From Methanococcoides seepicolus (GTDB lineage: Archaea; Halobacteriota; Methanosarcinia; Methanosarcinales; Methanosarcinaceae): a stretch of DNA of 44,995 bases. Below, in pieces: positions 9,397 through 21,104 of the stretch (its first letter is position 1; each line of letters opens with the position of its first letter). The translations under genes were made by a program, and so were the position numbers. Location: the NCBI RefSeq assembly GCF_023684405.1, contig NZ_JAGSOI010000014.1:1-44995 (forward strand), given 5' to 3'. The notes beneath the pieces were generated by a model that was not told the origin of the DNA, searched no databases, and saw nothing but the letters and a program-made list of their open reading frames with translations.

Positions 9397-10437
9397 TCAT
9401 CTGGGATTATATATACAGTATGGCTCTTCCGCCATGTAGTCACCAGTGGCTGCATAAGCACGGGCACGGCAACCCCCGCAGACGTTGTTGTAGCTGCATT
9501 TTCCGCATTTACCACCGAGCTTATCATAATCGCGAAGATCGTTGAAAAGTTCAGAGTCTTCCCATATCTCCCTGAAGCTCTTTTCCTTCACGTTGCCTGC
9601 GACCACAGGCAGATATCCGCAGGGCTGGACATCTCCTGTACTGGAAACGAAGCAAAAGCTTATACCTCCGAGACATCCCCGAGTCATTGCCTCATAGCCA
9701 TGTGTCTTAACAGTGACCTCAGTGCCTTCTCTTTTTGCACGCTGGCGCATTATTCTGAAATAGTGAGGAGCGCATGTGGCCTTCAACTGGATCTTGACGT
9801 GCTTCTGCTGATCATAGAACCAGTTCAACACGCGCTCATATTCAGCAGGAGGTATCTCTTCGTTCTCGAGTTCCTTACCCCTGCCGGTTGGCACAAGAAG
9901 GAAGATATGATGTGCTTCCGCACCAATTTCGGTTGCAAGTTCAAGAATGGCAGGGATCTCATCGATATTCCTTTTTGTTATGGTTGTGTTTATCTGGAAA
10001 CCAAGCCCGCCATTTTTGAGGTACTCGATGCCACGCATAGTGCTTTCGAATGCACCGGGAACTCCACGGAAATCGTCATGTGTCTGTGCCGATGAACCAT
10101 CGATGCTTATACTGACACGCTGCACACCTGCGTCTTTTAGTTTTTTCACAACATCGTCATTGAGAAGGGTTCCGTTGGTCGCAAGAGCTACACGCAGACC
10201 TTTGTCAGTAGCGTATCTTGCGATCTCATAGACATCCTTGCGAACAAGAGGTTCGCCTCCGGTCAGAATGAGAATGGGATCTCCCATCTCTACGATCTCA
10301 TCGACGAAATGTTTTGCTTCAGACGTGGAAAGTTCACCCTCAGGTATCTCCGATGTAGATGAACCTCTGCAATGAACACATGCAAGATTACATCCCCATG
10401 TCAATTCCCATGCTATAAGTCGTGGAGGTTTTACCAT
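9397..10437 (-). CDS. ahbD: Heme synthase AhbD (radical SAM)
   Basis: A 346-residue radical SAM/SPASM enzyme. Cys16, Cys20 and Cys23 in WGCNLACVHCRG bind the S-adenosylmethionine cluster; LTGGEPLVR follows; the C-terminal cysteines in CGKCSYNNVCGGCRARAY hold the auxiliary cluster. The start PRLIAWELTWGCNLACVHCR matches AhbD, which oxidatively decarboxylates the propionates of Fe-coproporphyrin III to vinyls to give heme b. Position beside ahbA/B supports this over NirJ or AhbC. It ends 92 bases before ahbA and could be the first gene of the block. AhbC itself is not in this window. Confidence 0.88.
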   Translation of the reverse strand: MVKPPRLIAWELTWGCNLACVHCRGSSTSEIPEGELSTSEAKHFVDEIVEMGDPILILTGGEPLVRKDVYEIARYATDKGLRVALATNGTLLNDDVVKKLKDAGVQRVSISIDGSSAQTHDDFRGVPGAFESTMRGIEYLKNGGLGFQINTTITKRNIDEIPAILELATEIGAEAHHIFLLVPTGRGKELENEEIPPAEYERVLNWFYDQQKHVKIQLKATCAPHYFRIMRQRAKREGTEVTVKTHGYEAMTRGCLGGISFCFVSSTGDVQPCGYLPVVAGNVKEKSFREIWEDSELFNDLRDYDKLGGKCGKCSYNNVCGGCRARAYAATGDYMAEEPYCIYNPR

Positions 10438-10741: not shown

Positions 10742-10753
10742 TGGTGTTTGCAA

Positions 10754-11134
10754 ATGGAAAAAAAACGAAAGGCGATCCTCACCATTTTTGCGATAGTAGC
10801 AGTTATGGTGATCGGACTTTGGGGCGTTGATGTCGAACAGGGATATATGATGGTCTCTGAGATCACGACCATCCCACAGGATCATGTCGGGCAGAAAGTC
10901 AGTACAATGGGACTTGTCAAAAATGGGACATTGAGCATCTCACCGGAAATGGTCTCGTTCACCCTTACGGATGCTGAAGACGAGGAACAGGAGATATATA
11001 TTGAATACACAGCTGACCTTCCTGCAAATCTTGTAGAAGGGAACAGCGTTAGCCTTACAGGGACCATGATATCAGAATCAAAGATAGAGGCAGACCAGAT
11101 CGTTATCGGCTGCCCTTCAAAGTATTCCGAATGA
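10754..11134 (+). CDS. ccmE: Cytochrome c maturation heme chaperone CcmE, CXXXY type
   Basis: A 126-residue membrane-anchored OB-fold protein. An N-terminal basic stretch (MEKKRKA) is followed by one helix (about residues 8-25) and an external beta-barrel with the family pattern VSEITTIPQDHVGQKVSTMG and LVEGNSVSLTGTM. Near the C-terminus stands CPSKY: the heme-binding histidine of the bacterial HXXXY motif is replaced by cysteine, as reported for archaeal CcmE. It carries heme for attachment to c-type cytochromes outside the membrane. The ATG at 10754 (GGTG upstream) is preferred over TTG 10748. Its setting next to heme genes fits. Confidence 0.85.
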   Translation: MEKKRKAILTIFAIVAVMVIGLWGVDVEQGYMMVSEITTIPQDHVGQKVSTMGLVKNGTLSISPEMVSFTLTDAEDEEQEIYIEYTADLPANLVEGNSVSLTGTMISESKIEADQIVIGCPSKYSE

Positions 11135-11173: not shown

Positions 11174-12058
11174 ATGAATATCGAACAATGGGATGAATAC
11201 CGGCAGATCACCGATGCCATGAACGAAATGATAAGCGACATGGATGATTCACCCCAGATGAAAAACGTCGTCGGACATATTTGCAGATCGGGCGGAAAGA
11301 AGGTCAGACCTATTATATTACTACTGGCTTCCCGAATATGCGGAGGAGACTCCGACAATAGTATAAATGCAGCACTTGCCATTGAGCTTATCCACTCCGC
11401 ATCCCTTATACACGATGATATCCTGGACGAAGGGGTCATACGAAGAGGAGTAGAGTCCGCACATAAGAAGTTTGGACCAGCAGCTGCCATGCTTGCTGGG
11501 GATTATATGATCTCAAAATCCATTGAGCTTATTTCAATATACAGTACACCGGTAGTGCGGGAGTTCGGACGTGCAGGAATGGCAATGGCAGAGGGCGAGA
11601 CCATTGACATAAAAAGCACATCCGAGGATTTTGCAGAGATGAACTATTTCGATTGCATCGACAAGAAGACCGCATCCCTCTTTGCGGCCAGTGCGGCAAT
11701 GGGTGCATATATCGTAGGTGCTGATGAAAGGACTGCAAGTAAATTGAAGGATTATGGAGAAAAGCTCGGAAGAGCATATCAGATCGTTGACGATATTCTG
11801 GAATATACCGAGAATGTCGATGATAAGAGATCCGAGAATGAATCCATATCGATCTTGCAGATATATAGAAGGGCCATACCACATGAGAGCGCTGTAGAAA
11901 AGGCGACCTTACTGGCAATGGAGAACGTGAGAATGGCAAAAGACATATTGGAAGAGTTCGAGCCTTCCGATTCAAGAAGCAAGCTCATGGAAGTTACAGA
12001 CCACATAACAACGGAAATGCTTCCGAAAACATTGAAAAATACTATCAGATCCAGGTGA
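11174..12058 (+). CDS. Polyprenyl diphosphate synthase, possibly geranylfarnesyl diphosphate synthase
   Basis: A 294-residue trans-isoprenyl diphosphate synthase. The first aspartate-rich motif is HDDILDE (Asp81-Asp85); the second is DDILE (206-210), a conservative variant of DDxxD. The residues before the first motif are small (Ala at -5, Ser at -4), which favours products longer than C15. In Methanosarcina mazei a C25 geranylfarnesyl diphosphate synthase supplies the methanophenazine side chain; the same role is inferred here from the neighbours (CcmE, radical SAM, ATP synthase). A geranylgeranyl product for membrane lipids is the main alternative. ATG at 11174 follows GAGG. Confidence 0.82.
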   Translation: MNIEQWDEYRQITDAMNEMISDMDDSPQMKNVVGHICRSGGKKVRPIILLLASRICGGDSDNSINAALAIELIHSASLIHDDILDEGVIRRGVESAHKKFGPAAAMLAGDYMISKSIELISIYSTPVVREFGRAGMAMAEGETIDIKSTSEDFAEMNYFDCIDKKTASLFAASAAMGAYIVGADERTASKLKDYGEKLGRAYQIVDDILEYTENVDDKRSENESISILQIYRRAIPHESAVEKATLLAMENVRMAKDILEEFEPSDSRSKLMEVTDHITTEMLPKTLKNTIRSR

Positions 12059-12063
12059 ACATT

Positions 12064-13257
12064 ATGCGGGTATATGACAAATCAGTTATCAAAGTAAATG
12101 CCAGTACAGAGAATGGAAAAGTCGTTCTCGATACAGAAGGACCACTATCAGCTGTATCAAAACCTGTGATAAAACGCATTAATAAGATATTCCGGGAAGA
12201 GAAGCCAATATTAGTGGACGAAGAGAATATCATTTTTTCCACATGGGTGCCACCGGTCCCAAGTCCCGCATTCAACAGGGTCATAAGTGCACAGATCGGC
12301 GCAATTATGAAAAAACGTATCCCTGACCAGTTCTCGATCGGGATAACAGACAGATGCCCATACAATTGCATACACTGTGGTGCTGCCGGCATTGTTGCAG
12401 ACCCTGAATTTGCGCTTGAAGAAATAAACAGAGTGGTCGATGAGGCAGTAGACCTTGGAGCATACCTGATATCTTTCGATGGTGGCGAGACCATGCTTCG
12501 AAGCGATATTGTGGACATGGTCGCCAGTGTTGATAAAACAAAGGCAATAGCCACCTGTTTTACATCAGGTTTCAAGTTGACACCTGAAAGGGCACGGGAC
12601 CTTAAGAATGCAGGCCTTTATTCAGCACATATCAGTGTGGATAGCCCGGATGAGAAAGAGCATGACCGCGTAAGGGGTTGTGAAGGGGCATTCCAGAACA
12701 GTATGACAGGTATCAAGAATACGCTGGATGCAGGGATCATGGCAGATATGTTCGTTGTGGCATCACCGGATAATATTGATGACCTTGAGGAGTTCTATAC
12801 CCTGGCAGATGATCTTGGCATGCAGGAAATGTCGATATATGAGATCATTGCCGTGGGAAGGTGGCTAGACCATGAAGACGAGACCCTCACCAAGAAAGAT
12901 ATTGTAAAGCTTGAAAGGTTCCAGAAGAGCAAGAACAAGGAAACTGACGGACCCAGGGTCACCGCGTTCCCGTATTTCAACGGACCTGAGCAGTTCGGTT
13001 GCTTTGCAGGCAGGAGATGGATGCATGTTGCTGCGGGCGGAGACGTTATGCCATGCGCTTATACACCGCTCTCCTTCGGAAACGTTAGAGAAGATGGTCT
13101 TGCAGAAATATGGAAACGTATGGGAAAACATGCGGCATACAAGGGATCTGCAGATTATTGTATGATGCGTAACCCGGAATTCAGAAAGGAGTATATACAC
13201 ACCATACCAAAGGATGCTCAAATTCCTTTAAGGGTTGACCTGCAATACAAAAACTAG
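12064..13257 (+). CDS. Radical SAM/SPASM-type protein of unknown substrate, linked to the prenyl synthase
   Basis: A 397-residue protein. The first ~85 residues are a distinct N-terminal domain; Cys98, Cys102 and Cys105 in DRCPYNCIHCGAAG bind the SAM cluster; ISFDGGETMLR is the GGE motif; the C-terminal part has GCFAGRRWMHVAAGGDVMPC followed by AYTPLSFGNV, an auxiliary-cluster domain like SPASM/twitch. It does not resemble AhbC in its N-terminus. The ATG at 12064 sits six bases after AGGTGA and the gene starts just after the prenyl synthase stop, so the two are coupled. A role in methanophenazine synthesis or another membrane cofactor is inference only. Confidence 0.8.
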   Translation: MRVYDKSVIKVNASTENGKVVLDTEGPLSAVSKPVIKRINKIFREEKPILVDEENIIFSTWVPPVPSPAFNRVISAQIGAIMKKRIPDQFSIGITDRCPYNCIHCGAAGIVADPEFALEEINRVVDEAVDLGAYLISFDGGETMLRSDIVDMVASVDKTKAIATCFTSGFKLTPERARDLKNAGLYSAHISVDSPDEKEHDRVRGCEGAFQNSMTGIKNTLDAGIMADMFVVASPDNIDDLEEFYTLADDLGMQEMSIYEIIAVGRWLDHEDETLTKKDIVKLERFQKSKNKETDGPRVTAFPYFNGPEQFGCFAGRRWMHVAAGGDVMPCAYTPLSFGNVREDGLAEIWKRMGKHAAYKGSADYCMMRNPEFRKEYIHTIPKDAQIPLRVDLQYKN

Positions 13258-13504: not shown

Positions 13505-13831
13505 ATGGCCAAAGACAAAATCTTATCCGAAATCAAGGAAGCAGAACAAAGTGCGGCCAAAATGGTGGATGAAGGGCTTAAGAACAAGAGCGAGCGCATT
13601 ACAGCAGCTCGTGCTGAAGCCAGAGAGATCATCAAACAGGCGGAAACTGATGCAGCACAATCTGCCCAGAATGCACTGAAGTCAGCTGAAGAGACTATTA
13701 AACACGAATCTGAAGATATTATCTCCAAAGGCGTGAACGAAGCCAAAATGATCAGCGACAAAGCTGAGGGTAACGTTGACAAAGCCGTTGAAAATCTGGT
13801 CACAGAGTTTGAGAGGACAATACATGCTTAA
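13505..13831 (+). CDS. ahaH: A1Ao ATP synthase peripheral-stalk subunit H
   Basis: A 108-residue, highly charged, almost entirely coiled-coil protein (for example AAKMVDEGLKNKSERITAAR). Together with subunit E it forms the peripheral stalks that hold the A1 head to the membrane sector. It is first in the operon, the normal place of ahaH in Methanosarcina-type operons, and overlaps ahaI by eight bases. Confidence 0.88.
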   Translation: MAKDKILSEIKEAEQSAAKMVDEGLKNKSERITAARAEAREIIKQAETDAAQSAQNALKSAEETIKHESEDIISKGVNEAKMISDKAEGNVDKAVENLVTEFERTIHA

Positions 13832-15764
13832 GCCAAAACAGATGAGTCGTGCCGTCATTGTAGGACACAAGGACATCATGGAAGCTACCGTGGAAGCAAT
13901 TCACGGCAGCAACTTGTTCCACCTTGAAGATTACAATGAAGACGGTTCCGGACTTAAGCTTGGCAGACCATTCAAAAATGCAGGCGAAGTTTCTAAGAAA
14001 CTGATCCAATTAAGATCTATCTCATCCTTCCTTGGTGTTAAGAAAGAATCAATACCAAAAAAGAAGGAGACAACTGTTATCAATGAGCTCGATTCAATGC
14101 TGGACCAGCTTGATATCGAGGTTAGTACTAAAACAGAGAAAAAGTCTGAACTGGATTCACGACTCAAGGAACTTGAAACACTGAAAAAGGACATTAGTCC
14201 ATTTTCAGCGATCCCTATAGATATGGAATTATACCATAACTATGAGAGCATTAAGGTCTTTGCAGGAACTGTCAAGGAAAACATTGGTTCTGCTGTCTCA
14301 CAGGTAACATCGACCTATGAGATGGAATATGACCAAAGTACCGGAACTGTGGCATTATTCATTAAGAAAGAAGATGAAGCTAAGATATCAGAGATCCTTT
14401 CAAATTTCGAGTTCAGAGAGATAAGGATACCAGAGATAACCGGAACCCCTTCGACCCTGATAGCAGATATTACAAGGGAAGAAGAGGGAATCCAGAAGCA
14501 GATCACTTCACTGGAAACGGATATTACATCTATCAAGGATAAATATTCAGAGTTCATACTTGCCAGTGAGGAATTGCTTACTATCGAATCTGAAAAAGCA
14601 GAGGCTCCAGTAAAGATAGCAACATCAGAACACACATTCATCATGGATGGATGGATACCTGATGATCAATTTGCAACTCTTGAAAGGACAATTGAATCTG
14701 CTACAAACGGACGAGCTTTCGTTTCAAAGCAAAGGATCACAAACGCTGATACAGACATCATACCTATCGAATATGATAATCCAAAGATCACCCAGCCATT
14801 CCAGGAGATCATGGACCTTTATGCACGTCCAAAGTACAAGGAGATCGATCCAACTTCTCTGATATTCATATCATTCCCACTTTTCTATGGAATGATCCTT
14901 GGAGACATAGGATATGCACTGATCCTCCTAGCACTTGCATTAGGTATCAAAAAGATGGTCAAGTCAGATGCAGTAAAGCCTTTGATGAATGTACTTATCT
15001 ATTGTCAGATATCAACATTGATCTTTGGTGTTCTGTATGGTGAGTTCCTTGGGTTCCCACTTGCAAGTTTGCATACAGACCACGGAATTATACCTGGATT
15101 AATAGCAGGGTTCGAGACCATAACTCTCTTCAACTCCCCAGTTGGAGGAGAAGTTATCACATATCCGATACACCGCACACACATTGTGATGACGATGATC
15201 ATTGCAACGGCACTTATCGGTTCACTTCATGTCAATTGTGGATATGTAGTTGGATTCATAAACGAAAGAAGAAAGCACGGATTCGCTGCAGCTATGTTCG
15301 AAAAGGGCAGCTGGCTTGTAGTCGAACTCGGAATAATCCTGGGTGTACTTGGTTATACAGGTTACGCACCTACGGCGATCATAGGAATTATAGTGTTCCT
15401 TATAGGATTCGTCATGCTCATTAAAGGAGAAGGCGCAAAGGGAGCTATAGAATTGCCTAGCTTATTAAGTAATGCACTTTCCTACACTCGTTTAATAGCT
15501 GTAGGATTGTCATCAATCTATATTGCATCAACTGTCAATCTCATAGCTTTTGATATGATCCTTCCACAGGGCGGGATCGTGGCAGTGATCGGTGCAATAA
15601 TCGTATTCATATTCGGACATGCGTTAAACACAGTCCTGAGTATAATAGCCCCTGGATTGCATTCACTAAGATTGCAGTATGTAGAGTTTTTCGGTAAATT
15701 CTACGAAGGTGGCGGAAGAAAATACAGCCCATTCGGATACATTAGGAAATACACGGAGGAATAA
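13824..15764 (+). CDS. ahaI: A1Ao ATP synthase membrane subunit I (a-type)
   Basis: A 646-residue subunit: the N-terminal half is soluble with coiled-coil stretches that bind the stalks, the C-terminal half (from about residue 345) has seven or eight membrane helices. SNALSYTRLIAVGLSSIYIA contains the arginine that faces the rotor and is essential for ion flow. The ATG at 13824 (GAGAGG upstream) overlaps the end of ahaH and gives the family start MLKPKQMSRAVIVGHKD; the frame is open further upstream, but inside ahaH. Confidence 0.95.
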   Translation: MLKPKQMSRAVIVGHKDIMEATVEAIHGSNLFHLEDYNEDGSGLKLGRPFKNAGEVSKKLIQLRSISSFLGVKKESIPKKKETTVINELDSMLDQLDIEVSTKTEKKSELDSRLKELETLKKDISPFSAIPIDMELYHNYESIKVFAGTVKENIGSAVSQVTSTYEMEYDQSTGTVALFIKKEDEAKISEILSNFEFREIRIPEITGTPSTLIADITREEEGIQKQITSLETDITSIKDKYSEFILASEELLTIESEKAEAPVKIATSEHTFIMDGWIPDDQFATLERTIESATNGRAFVSKQRITNADTDIIPIEYDNPKITQPFQEIMDLYARPKYKEIDPTSLIFISFPLFYGMILGDIGYALILLALALGIKKMVKSDAVKPLMNVLIYCQISTLIFGVLYGEFLGFPLASLHTDHGIIPGLIAGFETITLFNSPVGGEVITYPIHRTHIVMTMIIATALIGSLHVNCGYVVGFINERRKHGFAAAMFEKGSWLVVELGIILGVLGYTGYAPTAIIGIIVFLIGFVMLIKGEGAKGAIELPSLLSNALSYTRLIAVGLSSIYIASTVNLIAFDMILPQGGIVAVIGAIIVFIFGHALNTVLSIIAPGLHSLRLQYVEFFGKFYEGGGRKYSPFGYIRKYTEE

Positions 15765-15768
15765 ACAA

Positions 15769-16008
15769 ATGGTAGACGCAGCAGCAGCAGTAGTATATAT
15801 GGACCCAGCAGGATTAAAAGCAATTGGAGCAGGACTCGCAGTAGGACTTACTGGACTTGCATCCGGAATTGCAGAAAGAGATATTGGTTCAGCAGCAATC
15901 GGCGCAATGGCAGAGAACGAGAGTCTATTTGGTAAAGGTTTGATCCTTACCGTAATTCCAGAAACAATCGTTATCTTCGGACTTGTCGTCGCACTGCTTA
16001 TCAGCTAA
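15769..16008 (+). CDS. ahaK: A1Ao ATP synthase rotor subunit K (c-type)
   Basis: A 79-residue proteolipid with two membrane helices in a hairpin. Glu65 in TVIPETIVIFGL is the ion-binding carboxylate of the second helix; the first helix has the glycine-rich AGLAVGLTGLASGIAER. The ATG at 15769 follows GGAGGA; longer upstream reading would run inside ahaI. Many copies are needed per complex, and a strong hairpin stands right after the gene (16012-16042). Confidence 0.95.
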   Translation: MVDAAAAVVYMDPAGLKAIGAGLAVGLTGLASGIAERDIGSAAIGAMAENESLFGKGLILTVIPETIVIFGLVVALLIS

Positions 16009-16011
16009 GTT

Positions 16012-16042
16012 AATTTAAGAGCAAACATATTGCTCTTAAATT
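16012..16042 (+). other. Perfect 13-bp stem-loop between ahaK and ahaE
   Basis: AATTTAAGAGCAA pairs without mismatch to TTGCTCTTAAATT around the five-base loop ACATA, followed by CTTTT. It starts four bases after the ahaK stop. Likely roles are protection of the ahaK message end, RNA processing, or partial termination that raises c-subunit output. Confidence 0.75.
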
Positions 16043-16060
16043 CTTTTAAGGTGTCAGAGC

Positions 16061-16612
16061 ATGGGACTCGAAACAGTTATAAAAGATATCATGGGTGCTG
16101 CCCAGACAGAAGTAAACATGATCAATGCAGATGCTGATGCAGAGGTATCACAGATACTGGATGATGCTAGGCAGACTGCAAAGAAGATCATGGGCGAACG
16201 TCTGGCGAAAGCAGAAGATGATATCAAGCGATTACGCCAACAGGAGATCTCCAGCGCAAATCTGGAAGTCAAACGTACAATGCTTAATGCTCGCAAAGAA
16301 GTCCTTGACAAAGTATACGATAATGCAATAGAAACTATTGCATCCCTTCCTGAAACAAAGCAGGAAGAGCTGCTAAAAGCGATCATTGATGAAAATGATA
16401 GCAATGGCAGTAAAATATACTCAAACAAGGACTCAGAAAAACTTGTCAAAAAGTTGTCTTCCCTTGAATATACCGGCAATATCGATTGTATTGGCGGATT
16501 GATCATGGAGAACGATGATGGAACAGTTCGTTTAGATTATACATACGATATAATCATGAAGAATGTTAATGAGCAATCATTGAAACAGACATCTGATATC
16601 TTGTTCGGGTGA
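16061..16612 (+). CDS. ahaE: A1Ao ATP synthase peripheral-stalk subunit E
   Basis: A 183-residue protein: the N-terminal ~100 residues are charged coiled coil (AEVSQILDDARQTAKKI), the C-terminus is the globular head-binding domain with CIGGLIMENDDGTVRLDYTY, a family signature. It pairs with subunit H in the stalks. ATG at 16061; eight bases separate it from ahaC. Confidence 0.93.
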   Translation: MGLETVIKDIMGAAQTEVNMINADADAEVSQILDDARQTAKKIMGERLAKAEDDIKRLRQQEISSANLEVKRTMLNARKEVLDKVYDNAIETIASLPETKQEELLKAIIDENDSNGSKIYSNKDSEKLVKKLSSLEYTGNIDCIGGLIMENDDGTVRLDYTYDIIMKNVNEQSLKQTSDILFG

Positions 16613-16619
16613 TATCCAA

Positions 16620-17693
16620 ATGGGGCTTTTGCAAAAATTCACAAGAAAAAGTAGTCCGAAGCAGAGCGGAAGTGGCTCAAATTACGCTTATGTGACTGCA
16701 CGCGTTCGCGCGATGAAAAGCAATCTTCTCCCTAGGGAAACATATCCTCGATTAATGAACATGGGAATCGACGAGATCACCCGTTTTATCGGAGAGTCAC
16801 AGTATAAGCAGGATGTCGATGAACTGGCAAGAACATATGACGGTGTGGATCTGTTTGAACACGCATTGAACAGGAATCTTGCGGTCACTTTTACAAAATT
16901 GATCAATATCTCCGAAGGAGAGTTGAACTATCTGATCTCTGAATATCTTAGGAAATATGATATATGGAGCATCAAGACCATTCTACGTGGAAAGTACTGT
17001 GATGCATCAGTAGAAGAGATCAATGATAGCATAGTTTCCGCCGGACAACTGTCTTATCCATTTTTGTCAAGCCTTTCAGAAAAAGAATCATATGAAAGCA
17101 TCATCGATGCTCTCAGTGGAACCGATTATTACCCAACATTAAAAGGATATGATGGGACAAACCTCTCTGAGATCGAAAACCAGCTTGATAAGATGTACTA
17201 TACCGGACTGTCCACTACAGTAGACAATCCAAAATCCAATGATAGTAAACTGTTCTCAAAGTTCATCCGTACTGAGATCGACATAAAGAACCTGAGTACC
17301 CTTTTCAGGTTGAAGAATGCCGGTGCGGAAAAGGATGAAATTGCAGACCTGATTCTTGAAGGCGGTCTTCATTTAAACATTAAAGAGATTGAAAAGCTAT
17401 TACCACTTCCATTCAGTGAATTTGTTCAGTCACTTGAGAAGTATCCTTATTGGGAGGATATATCTGGAATAGTGAAAACTGAAATGGATTCACTGGTAGA
17501 ACTGGAAACTCAACTCACGAAGTCCAACATCAAATCCGCTTCAAGCTTTTCACATGTGTACCCATTATCCATTGTTCCGATCATGGATTATGTACTGAAC
17601 AAGACGAACGAAGTACACAACTTGCGTATAATTCTGCGCGGAAAAGCAGCAGATCTTGATGAAGAAATAATCAGGAACCAGTTGGTGATCTAA
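16620..17693 (+). CDS. ahaC: A1Ao ATP synthase central-stalk subunit C
   Basis: A 357-residue, mainly helical, funnel-shaped subunit that connects the central axle (D/F) to the rotor ring. The segments [20 protein letters not shown] and [10 protein letters not shown] / [12 protein letters not shown], repeated in the structural halves, are typical of archaeal/vacuolar C/d subunits. It shares its last base with the first base of ahaF. Confidence 0.93.
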
Positions 17694-17992
17694 TGGAATT
17701 AGCAGTAGTAGGTAGCAGCGAGTTTGTAACAGGATTCAGACTAGCTGGTATTAAAAAGATATACGAAGCTAAAAGTGATGAGTTGGAATCTGTTGTCACA
17801 AAAGTGCTCAATGATTCAGATGTAGGTATCTTTGTGATACATGAAAATGACTTTAATAAACTACCGGAAATTTTGAGAGATACTCTTAGTGAGTCTGTTG
17901 ACCCCACAGTGGTCACTCTCGGAGGAACTGGTGAAAGTTCAAACTTAAGGGAAAAGATAAAACAATCGGTAGGTGTAGATCTGTGGAAGTAA
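17693..17992 (+). CDS. ahaF: A1Ao ATP synthase subunit F
   Basis: A 99-residue alpha/beta protein on the central axle. It starts [20 protein letters not shown], the common start of the family (a small Rossmann-like fold), with a charged C-terminal helix that contacts subunit D and B. It overlaps the ahaA start by ten bases. Confidence 0.93.
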
Positions 17993-19719
17993 ATGGTGAA
18001 ATTTATCGTGTGGCAGGACCTGTTGTTACGGTTATAGGAATTAAACCGAGAATGTACGACGTGGTCAAAGTAGGTCACGAGGGACTGATGGGAGAAGTCA
18101 TCAGGATCAAAGGCGAACAGGCTACTGTTCAGGTATACGAAGATACTTCCGGTCTCAAACCGGGAGAACCTGTAATGAACACCGGACTGCCTTTGTCCGT
18201 TGAACTTGGACCCGGATTATTAGAAAGTATTTATGATGGTATTCAGAGACCTCTGCCAGTGTTGCAGGAACAGATGGGCAACTTCATTCAGAGAGGAGTT
18301 ACCGCAAACGGACTGGACCGTGAAAGGGTCTGGGAGTTCAAGCCAACAGCAAGCAAAGGCGATGAGGTAAAAGGTGGTAACATACTCGGTTTGGTCCAGG
18401 AGACCAAAAATATCGAGCACAAGATCATGGTCCCACCATCGATCTCTGGTACTATCGAAGAGATAAAAGCAGGCAGCTTCAAAGTAGATGAGACTATCTG
18501 TGTTCTCACAGATGGAACAGAGATCTCAATGATGCAGAAGTGGCCAGTACGAGGACCACGCCCTGTAGCAAAGAAACTCATGCCAACCAAGCCTCTTATC
18601 ACAGGACAGAGGATCCTTGATGGTATGTTCCCTATAGCAAAAGGCGGAACAGCTGCAATTCCAGGTCCATTCGGATCAGGAAAGACAGTTACTCAGCAGC
18701 AGCTTGCTAAGTGGAGTGACACTGATATTGTGGTTTACATCGGTTGCGGAGAACGCGGCAATGAAATGGCTGATGTATTGAACGAGTTCCCGGAACTCGA
18801 GGATCCAAAGACAGGTCGTCCACTCATGGAAAGGACAGTTCTTATCGCAAATACATCCAACATGCCTGTAGCTGCTCGTGAAGCATCTGTTTACACTGGT
18901 ATCACAATTGCAGAGTATTACAGAGACATGGGATACGATGTATCACTCATGGCAGACTCAAGTTCAAGATGGGCAGAAGCAATGAGAGAAATTTCTTCAA
19001 GGCTTGAAGAAATGCCTGGAGAAGAAGGTTATCCAGCATACCTCTCTGCAAGACTCTCTGAATTCTATGAGCGTGCAGGAGCAGTTAACTCCCTTGCAGG
19101 ACTTGACGGTTCAATCACTGTAATTGGTGCAGTATCACCACCTGGTGGTGACTTCTCAGAGCCTGTTACCCAGAACACACTCCGTATCGTAAAGGTATTC
19201 TGGGCGCTTGATGCAAAGCTCTCACAGAGAAGACACTTCCCATCCATTAACTGGCTTACAAGTTACAGTCTGTACACCCAGGGACTTGCTGACTGGTACA
19301 GCGAGAACGTTGGATCTGACTGGACACAGCTCAGGGACGATGCAATGGACCTTCTTCAGCAGGAATCCGAACTTCAGGAGATCGTGCAGCTCGTAGGTTC
19401 TGATGCACTTCCGGAAGATCAGCAGCTCACACTTGAAGTTGCACGTATGGTAAGGGAATATTTCCTCCAGCAGAACGCATTCCACCCTGTTGACACATAC
19501 TGTCCGTTCGACAAGCAGTACAAGCTTCTCAAATCCATCACAAGATATGGAGAGATGGCAACAGCTGCACTTGAATCAGGAGTTCCAATGAACAAGATCA
19601 TCACCATCAAATCAAAGGATGAACTCGCAAAAGTGAAATTCGAAGAAGACTTCGATGCAGCACTTGATGTAGTCATGAAGAAGATGGATGAAGAATTTGC
19701 ACAGATCGGAGGCAACTGA
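17983..19719 (+). CDS. ahaA: A1Ao ATP synthase catalytic subunit A
   Basis: A 578-residue catalytic subunit. The archaeal P-loop GPFGSGKT lies near residue 228, the Walker B region follows ([20 protein letters not shown]), and the non-homologous insert found only in A-type catalytic subunits is present between about residues 110 and 190. It makes and hydrolyses ATP in three sites with subunit B. The start is GTG at 17983 within the end of ahaF, giving [17 protein letters not shown]. Confidence 0.97.
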
Positions 19720-19721
19720 AC

Positions 19722-21104
19722 ATGACCAAAGAATACAAAACGATCGTAGAGGTCTCCGGACCACTTATTTTCCTTGAGAAGACCGAGCCTGTAGGATATG
19801 GTGAACTTGTCCAGATCAACCTTCCTGATGGAACCACCAAGAGAGGACAGGTACTCGATACCTCTGCAGATATGGTAGTCGTGCAGGTCTTCGAAGGTAC
19901 AGTAGGACTCAACGAGGAATCCGGTGTAGTATTCAGTGGCGAGACCATCAAACTCCCTGTATCAAAGGATATGCTTGGCAGGATCCTTTCAGGAGCCGGT
20001 GAACCACTGGATGGCGGACCAAGGATCATACCTGACAAGAGAGTAGACATCAATGGTGCATCAATGAACCCATATTCCAGGATGCCACCAGAAGATTTCA
20101 TTCAGACAGGTATTTCCACCATCGACGGTACAAACACCCTTGTAAGAGGACAGAAACTTCCTATCTTCTCCGGATCAGGTCTCCCACATAACGAGATCGC
20201 ACTTCAGATTGCAAGGCAGGCTAAAGTTCCTGGTAGCGATGAACCTTTTGCGGTAGTTTTCGCTGCAATGGGTATCACTAACGAAGAAGCACAGTACTTC
20301 ATGGACGATTTCGAGAAGACCGGCGCTCTTGAGAGAGCTGTTGTTTTCCTGAACCTTGCAGATGACCCTGCTGTCGAGCGTATCGTTACTCCAAGGATGG
20401 CTCTTACAGCTGCAGAGTACCTTGCATACGAACATGATATGCACGTACTCGTAATTCTGACAGATATCACAAACTACTGTGAAGCACTCCGTCAGATGGG
20501 AGCAGCAAGAGAAGAGGTTCCAGGTAGACGTGGTTACCCAGGTTACATGTACACTGACCTTGCATCACTGTATGAAAGGGCAGGAGTTATCAAAGGAATT
20601 AAGGGATCTGTTACCCAGTTCTCCATCCTTACAATGCCTGGTGACGATATCACCCACCCGATCCCTGATCTTTCCGGTTACATCACCGAAGGACAGATCG
20701 TGGTTTCCCGTGAACTTCACAGGAAGGGTATCTACCCACCGATCAATGTATTGCCATCACTCTCACGTCTTATGAACTCCGGTATCGGAGACGGTAAGAC
20801 AAGGGACGATCACAAGGCAGTGTCTGACCAGATGTATGCAGCATACGCAGAAGGCCGTGACCTTCGTGGACTTGTTGCTATCGTTGGTAAAGAAGCACTG
20901 TCCGAAAGAGACAGGAAGATGTTGGAGTTTGCGGACTTGTTCGAGGACAGGTTTGTACGCCAGAGCAGAGACGAGGACCGTACCATCGACGATACATTGA
21001 AGGTCGCATGGGAGATCCTTGCAGAGCTGCCTGAAGCACAGCTTACCAGGATCGATAACAAGTACCTTGACAAGTACCACCCTGCTCACCAGAAAAGCGA
21101 GTGA
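19722..21104 (+). CDS. ahaB: A1Ao ATP synthase regulatory/non-catalytic subunit B
   Basis: A 460-residue subunit that alternates with A in the hexameric head. In place of a P-loop it has [18 protein letters not shown], as expected for the non-catalytic subunit; [13 protein letters not shown] and [19 protein letters not shown] are further family signatures. It begins two bases after the ahaA stop. Confidence 0.97.

Follow-up and report, generated by a model that had tools for sequence, protein, structure and literature searches.

In cytochrome-containing methanogens and several anaerobic methane oxidisers, methanophenazine (MP) serves as the electron carrier in the membrane, and papers from 2018-2021 describe its biosynthesis as undeciphered beyond the tail synthase. 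The window analysed here, a stretch of 44,995 nucleotides from Methanococcoides seepicolus, raises the question whether a radical SAM gene lying directly behind a prenyl diphosphate synthase gene encodes a further enzyme of this pathway, as a sequence-only reading had proposed. The comparative analysis supported this proposal and widened it from a single enzyme to a set of seven genes. The pair is probably a part of the MP pathway of Methanosarcinia, although no assay, mutant or metabolite data are available and an MP role of the radical SAM protein, for which no reaction has been shown, is still a hypothesis.

The source genome (G000, 2.8 Mb) is that of a Methanosarcinaceae-type methanogen. 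The synthase gene, predicted to supply a C25 tail, occupies positions 11174..12058 of the plus strand, and the radical SAM gene, termed R1 and considered a candidate MP enzyme, follows at 12064..13257 on the same strand. The pairing is real and the coordinates hold: the synthase stop is a TGA at 12056-12058, leaving a spacer of 5 nt before the ATG at 12064, which is preceded by a ribosome-binding-like GGTGA. As judged from the sequence, this ATG is the most likely start of R1; in the family alignment the R1 orthologues start at the same MRVY motif, and the listed ORF start, a GTG at 12055, overlaps the synthase stop. A CcmE-like gene (10748..11134, plus strand; Pfam CcmE, 51.8 bits) lies immediately 5' of the synthase, and a heme cluster including AhbD heme b synthase (9397..10437, minus strand) lies upstream on the opposite strand. 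The A1AO ATP synthase operon downstream (13505..21104, plus strand), delimited by its ORFs and recognisable subunits, is context outside the proposed set. The same synthase context with ATP synthase genes has been described for Methanohalophilus mahii (PMC3017947), and an R1-type radical SAM gene is not discussed in the passages of that paper dealing with this context. The synthase and its genomic context are already known.

Profile searches revealed a Pfam polyprenyl_synt match of 180 bits for the synthase, with NF040627 (GFPS_Meth) as its top NCBIfam model. The score of 343.9 bits falls short of the cut-off of 600, but leads the second-best model (166 bits) by 178 bits. There is only one NF040627-type gene in the genome, the runner-up being a generic GGPP-type enzyme of 130 bits. 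A Methanosarcina-type orthologue (G154), to which the window synthase is 52% identical, reaches 619 bits, above the cut-off, and is followed by R1 as in the window. Named Methanosarcina MAGs have reductases with 84-94% identity to that of G154. MM_0789 of M. mazei has been shown to make the C25 chain for MP, according to the pertinent passage of PMC3017947, which cites Ogawa 2010. The window synthase resembles it in family, in the DD[IL]LE second motif and in its site between heme and ATP synthase genes, and differs from the curated family in its score. On sequence grounds it is a member of the MM_0789 family despite the sub-cut-off score, and a C25 product is likely, though not proven in the absence of an enzyme assay. 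The first aspartate-rich motif reads SASLIHDDILD, in agreement with the small residues noted earlier before DDILD. The second motif is indeed DDILE, but its description as a variant does not hold, since SASL[IV][HQ]DD..D and DD[ILM][LV]E occur in about 45 synthase orthologues, the second pattern in nearly all that were read, and the motif is a family trait rather than an oddity.

Besides R1, the genome carries its two paralogues R2 (41%) and R3 (39%). While R3 (L041:8093-9325) lies elsewhere, R2 (L040:6289-7434) is the third gene of an operon with small intergenic gaps, of which a UbiA prenyltransferase (L040:8612-9565) is the first and a geranylgeranyl-reductase-like flavoprotein (L040:7439-8596) the middle gene. 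A fourth, shorter radical SAM protein, R4 (L190:6987-7961), was first noticed in other lineages and is likewise encoded in this genome; among curated models, R4 proteins (L190:6987-7961, L047:7090-8079) score highest with TIGR03961 (PTO1314 family radical SAM protein, hypothetical), reaching 130-141 bits where 306 are required. The synthase and R1 are adjacent in all 11 fetched loci, representing 11 Methanosarcinaceae genera, in 8 of 8 Methanotrichaceae-type genomes for which both coordinates are listed, and in genome G076; an adjacency kept across lineages in this way is not due to chance. Of 12 Methanosarcinaceae genera examined, 11 have the order UbiA-reductase-R2, and in the remaining one (G079) the reductase and R2 are adjacent with UbiA on a separate contig. 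This order is also found in G076 and in three named Methanosarcina MAGs, and the UbiA-reductase pair is kept in all five genomes of family f3. The conserved gene orders thus tie R1 to the tail synthase and R2 to the presumed tail-attaching and tail-saturating enzymes.

MP has an ether-linked tail, the first unit of which is saturated. The best equivalogs of the L040 UbiA include the ether-forming archaeal GGGP geranylgeranyltransferase, and those of the flavoprotein are archaeal geranylgeranyl reductases; this match to the chemistry of the MP tail supports an MP role. Both proteins differ from the archaeal lipid enzymes in remaining below the curated cut-offs (85 of 296 bits for UbiA, 122.5 of 158.8 bits for the flavoprotein), and the genome has a separate generic copy of each. 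That a membrane enzyme of the UbiA type can prenylate a phenazine has a precedent in Streptomyces Mpz10, which acts on dihydroxyphenazine (PMC4044012). Mpz10 is, however, a bacterial enzyme from a cluster that includes phenazine and isoprenoid genes, and its comparison to the L040 UbiA is by analogy only, without homology data.

Distribution of the set was monitored across 238 Methanosarcinia genomes. The radical SAM family, called at E <= 1e-60, was recorded in 198, mostly in three copies, and MqnE above its curated cut-off in 37; no genome carries both, and only three carry neither (G015, 57% complete; G057; G068, 63% complete). Strictly called orthologues of both the reductase (E <= 1e-57 as compared to <= 1e-36 for generic copies) and UbiA (E <= 1e-92 as compared to <= 1e-19) track the same split with bimodal scores in an 80-genome panel, and so do R4 orthologues (44-64% identity) in a 29-genome panel, with misses in G076 and G001. 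The R1 clade (support 100/99) was found by tree and profile only in lineages believed to use MP, the MP content of each lineage being taken from the literature. The phylogenetic profile suggested earlier as a check on the MP idea is therefore favourable to it.

The MqnE-positive families are f2 and f5. Over its full length, the McrA-like protein of f2 matches 7B1S, a structure of ethyl-CoM reductase, and the McrA of f5 best matches 9QQT/9QR1, from which, together with PMC7327174, f5 is inferred to be Methanoperedenaceae. By these identifications f2 and f5 are the lineages to which published work assigns menaquinone: menaquinone genes have been reported in GoM-Arc1 and in all Methanoperedenaceae but the basal MAG ASW-3, which "likely uses MP" (PMC7327174), and MP was absent from an M. 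nitroreducens enrichment (PMC5244752). G076, a member of f5 (genus g27), lacks MqnE and has R1, R2, UbiA, the reductase and the C25 synthase, and hence behaves as predicted for a basal member like ASW-3. Directly 3' of its UbiA-reductase-R2 genes lie those for the small and large subunits of a NiFe hydrogenase and for cytochrome b, which together are the genes of an MP-reducing kind of membrane hydrogenase. This neighbourhood and the association of R2 with UbiA and the reductase-like flavoprotein both support the MP idea. Since f2 and f5 are sister families, the profile amounts to one or two losses and one retention and not to 37 independent events, and other genes, perhaps many and unrelated, surely share the same split, for which no background rate is available; the operons are evidence independent of the profile. 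In the futalosine pathway (MqnE, MqnC), which replaces MP lineage by lineage, a prenylated redox carrier of the membrane is made anaerobically with radical SAM enzymes, as is proposed here for MP. MqnE and MqnC belong to radical SAM families different from those of R1-R4, and MqnE never shares a genome with the R set in the class.

Two deviations were recorded close to the core lineages. The C25 synthase orthologue is missing from all five genomes of f3 (ANME-2a/b-like by inference), in which only a generic GGPP-type enzyme was found, while R1, UbiA and the reductase are retained; the tail may therefore be C20, or be supplied by a different synthase. In f3 a CcmE-like gene lies directly 5' of R1 (L191:5015-6607, L192:4239-5849). 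G001 (L195, family f6, without mcrA) possesses the radical SAM family, UbiA and the reductase; its C25-type synthase is divergent and reads DDLLD where others have DDxxE.

Among 295 sampled genomes of the phylum, the radical SAM family was found beyond the class only in f12, f16, f18 and f22 and as singletons in f21 (G308) and f31 (G362). In the four families the radical SAM family is accompanied by R4 and the reductase, and their panel genomes gave no MqnE above cut-off, no C25 synthase orthologue and no UbiA orthologue. In f12, f18 and f22, which are small-genome archaea, one compact cluster (L047:4697-12254; also L043, L044, L046, L048, L051, L052) unites four radical SAM genes (the three copies and R4) with the reductase, a membrane protein and an NMT1/THI5-like protein, and mcrA is absent from all but G255 of seven tested genomes of these cluster lineages. 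The R3-type gene of the cluster is a true R3 orthologue (tree 100/99), its reductase is orthologous to that of Methanosarcinia (37-40%), and its R4 shares 44-64% identity with the R4 of the class. An assignment of f12, f18 and f22 to ANME-1 was ruled out by the missing mcrA, f11 being the ANME-1-like family by its McrA. In f11 and in the four-Mcr group f21, MqnE-type genes are present and reductase and UbiA orthologues are absent; f11 has no member of the radical SAM family, and f21 no more than a single isolated R2-like gene. Either MP or a relative of it is made in f12, f16, f18 and f22, or the product of the set is broader; their carrier is unknown.

Two assignments for proteins of the cluster were rejected. 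The membrane protein (L047:10440-11366) is not a UbiA, as it gave no Pfam or NCBIfam match and hhalign returned a probability of 0.4% against a real UbiA alignment. The NMT1/THI5-like protein (L047:11373-12254) is not MqnA or MqnD, matching NMT1/THI5 and SsuA-type binding proteins instead, and no strict orthologue of it was found in Methanosarcinia. It begins MLKINIGLIRG, apparently without a signal peptide, and, like proteins with Thi5 or MqnA-type folds, may be an enzyme and not a component of a transporter. As to the singletons, the lone R2-type gene of G308 (L049:7707-8837) is lacking in the sister G259; G308 is MqnE-positive and has four Mcr-like alpha subunits. The single divergent member of G362 (L050:9708-12295) has a B12-binding radical SAM gene as its neighbour, and G362 lacks mcrA and MqnE above cut-off. 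A contig scan with the reductase alignment suffered from promiscuous Rossmann patterns and, among close relatives, named only Methanosarcina, Methanothrix and Methanohalophilus; a scan of viral contigs was empty.

The occurrence of a related cluster in mostly mcrA-less lineages devoid of the C25 synthase, taken with the resemblance of UbiA and the reductase to lipid enzymes, leaves room for the explanation that the set makes another prenylated or lipid product (e.g. hydroxyarchaeol or some other unusual ether lipid, or another redox lipid) that was lost on the switch to menaquinone. This is regarded as unlikely, though it survives better than the other alternatives: the genome has separate generic genes for lipids, the partner synthase comes from the C25 MP family, absence of the set coincides with presence of MqnE, and the G076 operon adjoins genes for a NiFe hydrogenase and cytochrome b.

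The barrel of R1 spans residues 97-250 (Pfam Radical_SAM, PF04055; 72.5 bits vs a gathering threshold of 29.5), and a SPASM match covers residues 316-356 (39.3 vs 21.5 bits). The N-terminal domain, put at about 85 residues in the sequence-only reading, was borne out at about 90 residues ahead of the barrel; searched against Pfam up to E 10, it matched no model, RRE/PqqD included. Cysteines invariant in 17 family members, numbered from the ORF start at 12055, are C101, C105 and C108 of a CxxxCxxC motif and C316, C334 and C369, the latter forming a C-X12-G-X4-C pattern plus one further cysteine. These three in the SPASM/twitch-like C-terminus do not make up the full SPASM set for two auxiliary clusters, and the shortage of cysteines suggests a single auxiliary cluster with an open site, as predicted from sequence. 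In MoaA, the substrate binds to the open site of the auxiliary cluster. R1 shares with PqqE, SkfB, MoaA, AhbD and NirJ the CxxxCxxC barrel, a C-terminal auxiliary cluster and the C-X12-G-X4-C pattern, and is distinguished from them by having just three invariant auxiliary cysteines and by an N-terminal domain with the motif PPxPxxxFxR. It meets no equivalog cut-off in NCBIfam, scoring 88 of 650 bits for AhbC, 138 of 500 for AhbD, 67 of 515 for NirJ, 109 of 381 for PqqE and 83 of 265 for mycofactocin MftC. By these scores R1 is neither AhbC, AhbD nor PqqE, as had been asserted for the first two, whereas the neighbouring ordinary radical SAM/SPASM gene at 9397-10437 passes as AhbD (TIGR04545, 665.6 bits; cut-off 500). 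An AlphaFold model built from only 4 sequences (pLDDT 54.7) was too poor to settle the fold.

The solved structures closest to R1 are SkfB (E 2e-15) and PqqE (E 6e-15), and weak matches extend to many peptide maturase models; R1-R3 might accordingly be peptide-modifying SPASM maturases, RiPP-like or acting on a peptide-derived cofactor, with neighbours only partly relevant. There is little to recommend this reading, as no conserved short peptide gene accompanies R1 or R2 in the loci read, no RRE/PqqD model of Pfam matches the N-terminal region, and the auxiliary cysteines fall short of the full SPASM set. These points still leave room for a head group of peptide origin. That R1 is a housekeeping or heme/cytochrome radical SAM protein, placed by the heme cluster, CcmE-like gene and ATP synthase of the window, with CcmE and R1 kept together in f3 without the synthase and the absence from menaquinone lineages incidental, is very improbable, since those lineages also have cytochromes (PMC7327174) yet lack R1-R3, R2 is linked to prenyl genes and not heme genes, and R1 is below the AhbC, AhbD and NirJ cut-offs.

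An MP pathway of seven genes is consequently preferred, and the following scheme is inferred for it from the observed gene order, conservation, family membership and mutual exclusion with MqnE. The synthase (11174-12058) would form the C25 all-trans diphosphate of the tail, and R1, R2 and R3, each with one open auxiliary cluster, would together with R4 make or tailor a hydroxyphenazine head group by a non-Phz route. UbiA would join the tail to the head, and the reductase-like flavoprotein would reduce the double bond beside the ether. The radical SAM proteins are allotted to the head group by elimination, the other steps being given to the synthase, UbiA and the reductase. MP as the product, the radical SAM action on the head group, the order of steps and every chemical step remain inferences; the reaction of R1, which is one of the set, cannot be assigned, and contact of any of the enzymes with a phenazine is unshown. 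Translational coupling of the synthase and R1 suggests that the supply of tail and head is matched.

In the open literature, no link of these radical SAM, UbiA and reductase genes to MP was found, nor any MP mutant data for them, nor anything relevant on locus tags beside MA0606/MM0789. Subscription papers and preprints were outside the scope of this search, so priority cannot be asserted. In M. barkeri, ubiquinone-type genes including UbiA have been named as likely MP genes from their expression (PMC6315138), and PhzF-domain genes have been reported only in some MP methanogens (PMC5244752).

It is possible, though this is offered only tentatively, that phenazine arises in archaea by a pathway with no relation to the bacterial Phz enzymes, employing three or four radical SAM proteins (R1-R4), UbiA and a geranylgeranyl-reductase-like enzyme, and that the clusters of small-genome, mostly mcrA-less archaea represent the same machinery. 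If true, phenazine-type membrane carriers would be older and wider than the cytochrome-containing methanogens. For the methanogens themselves, the C25 synthase, R1-R4, UbiA and the reductase-like flavoprotein are testable candidates for the unknown MP pathway, and the set would serve as a genomic marker to tell MP from menaquinone, for which the present criterion is the absence of menaquinone genes only.
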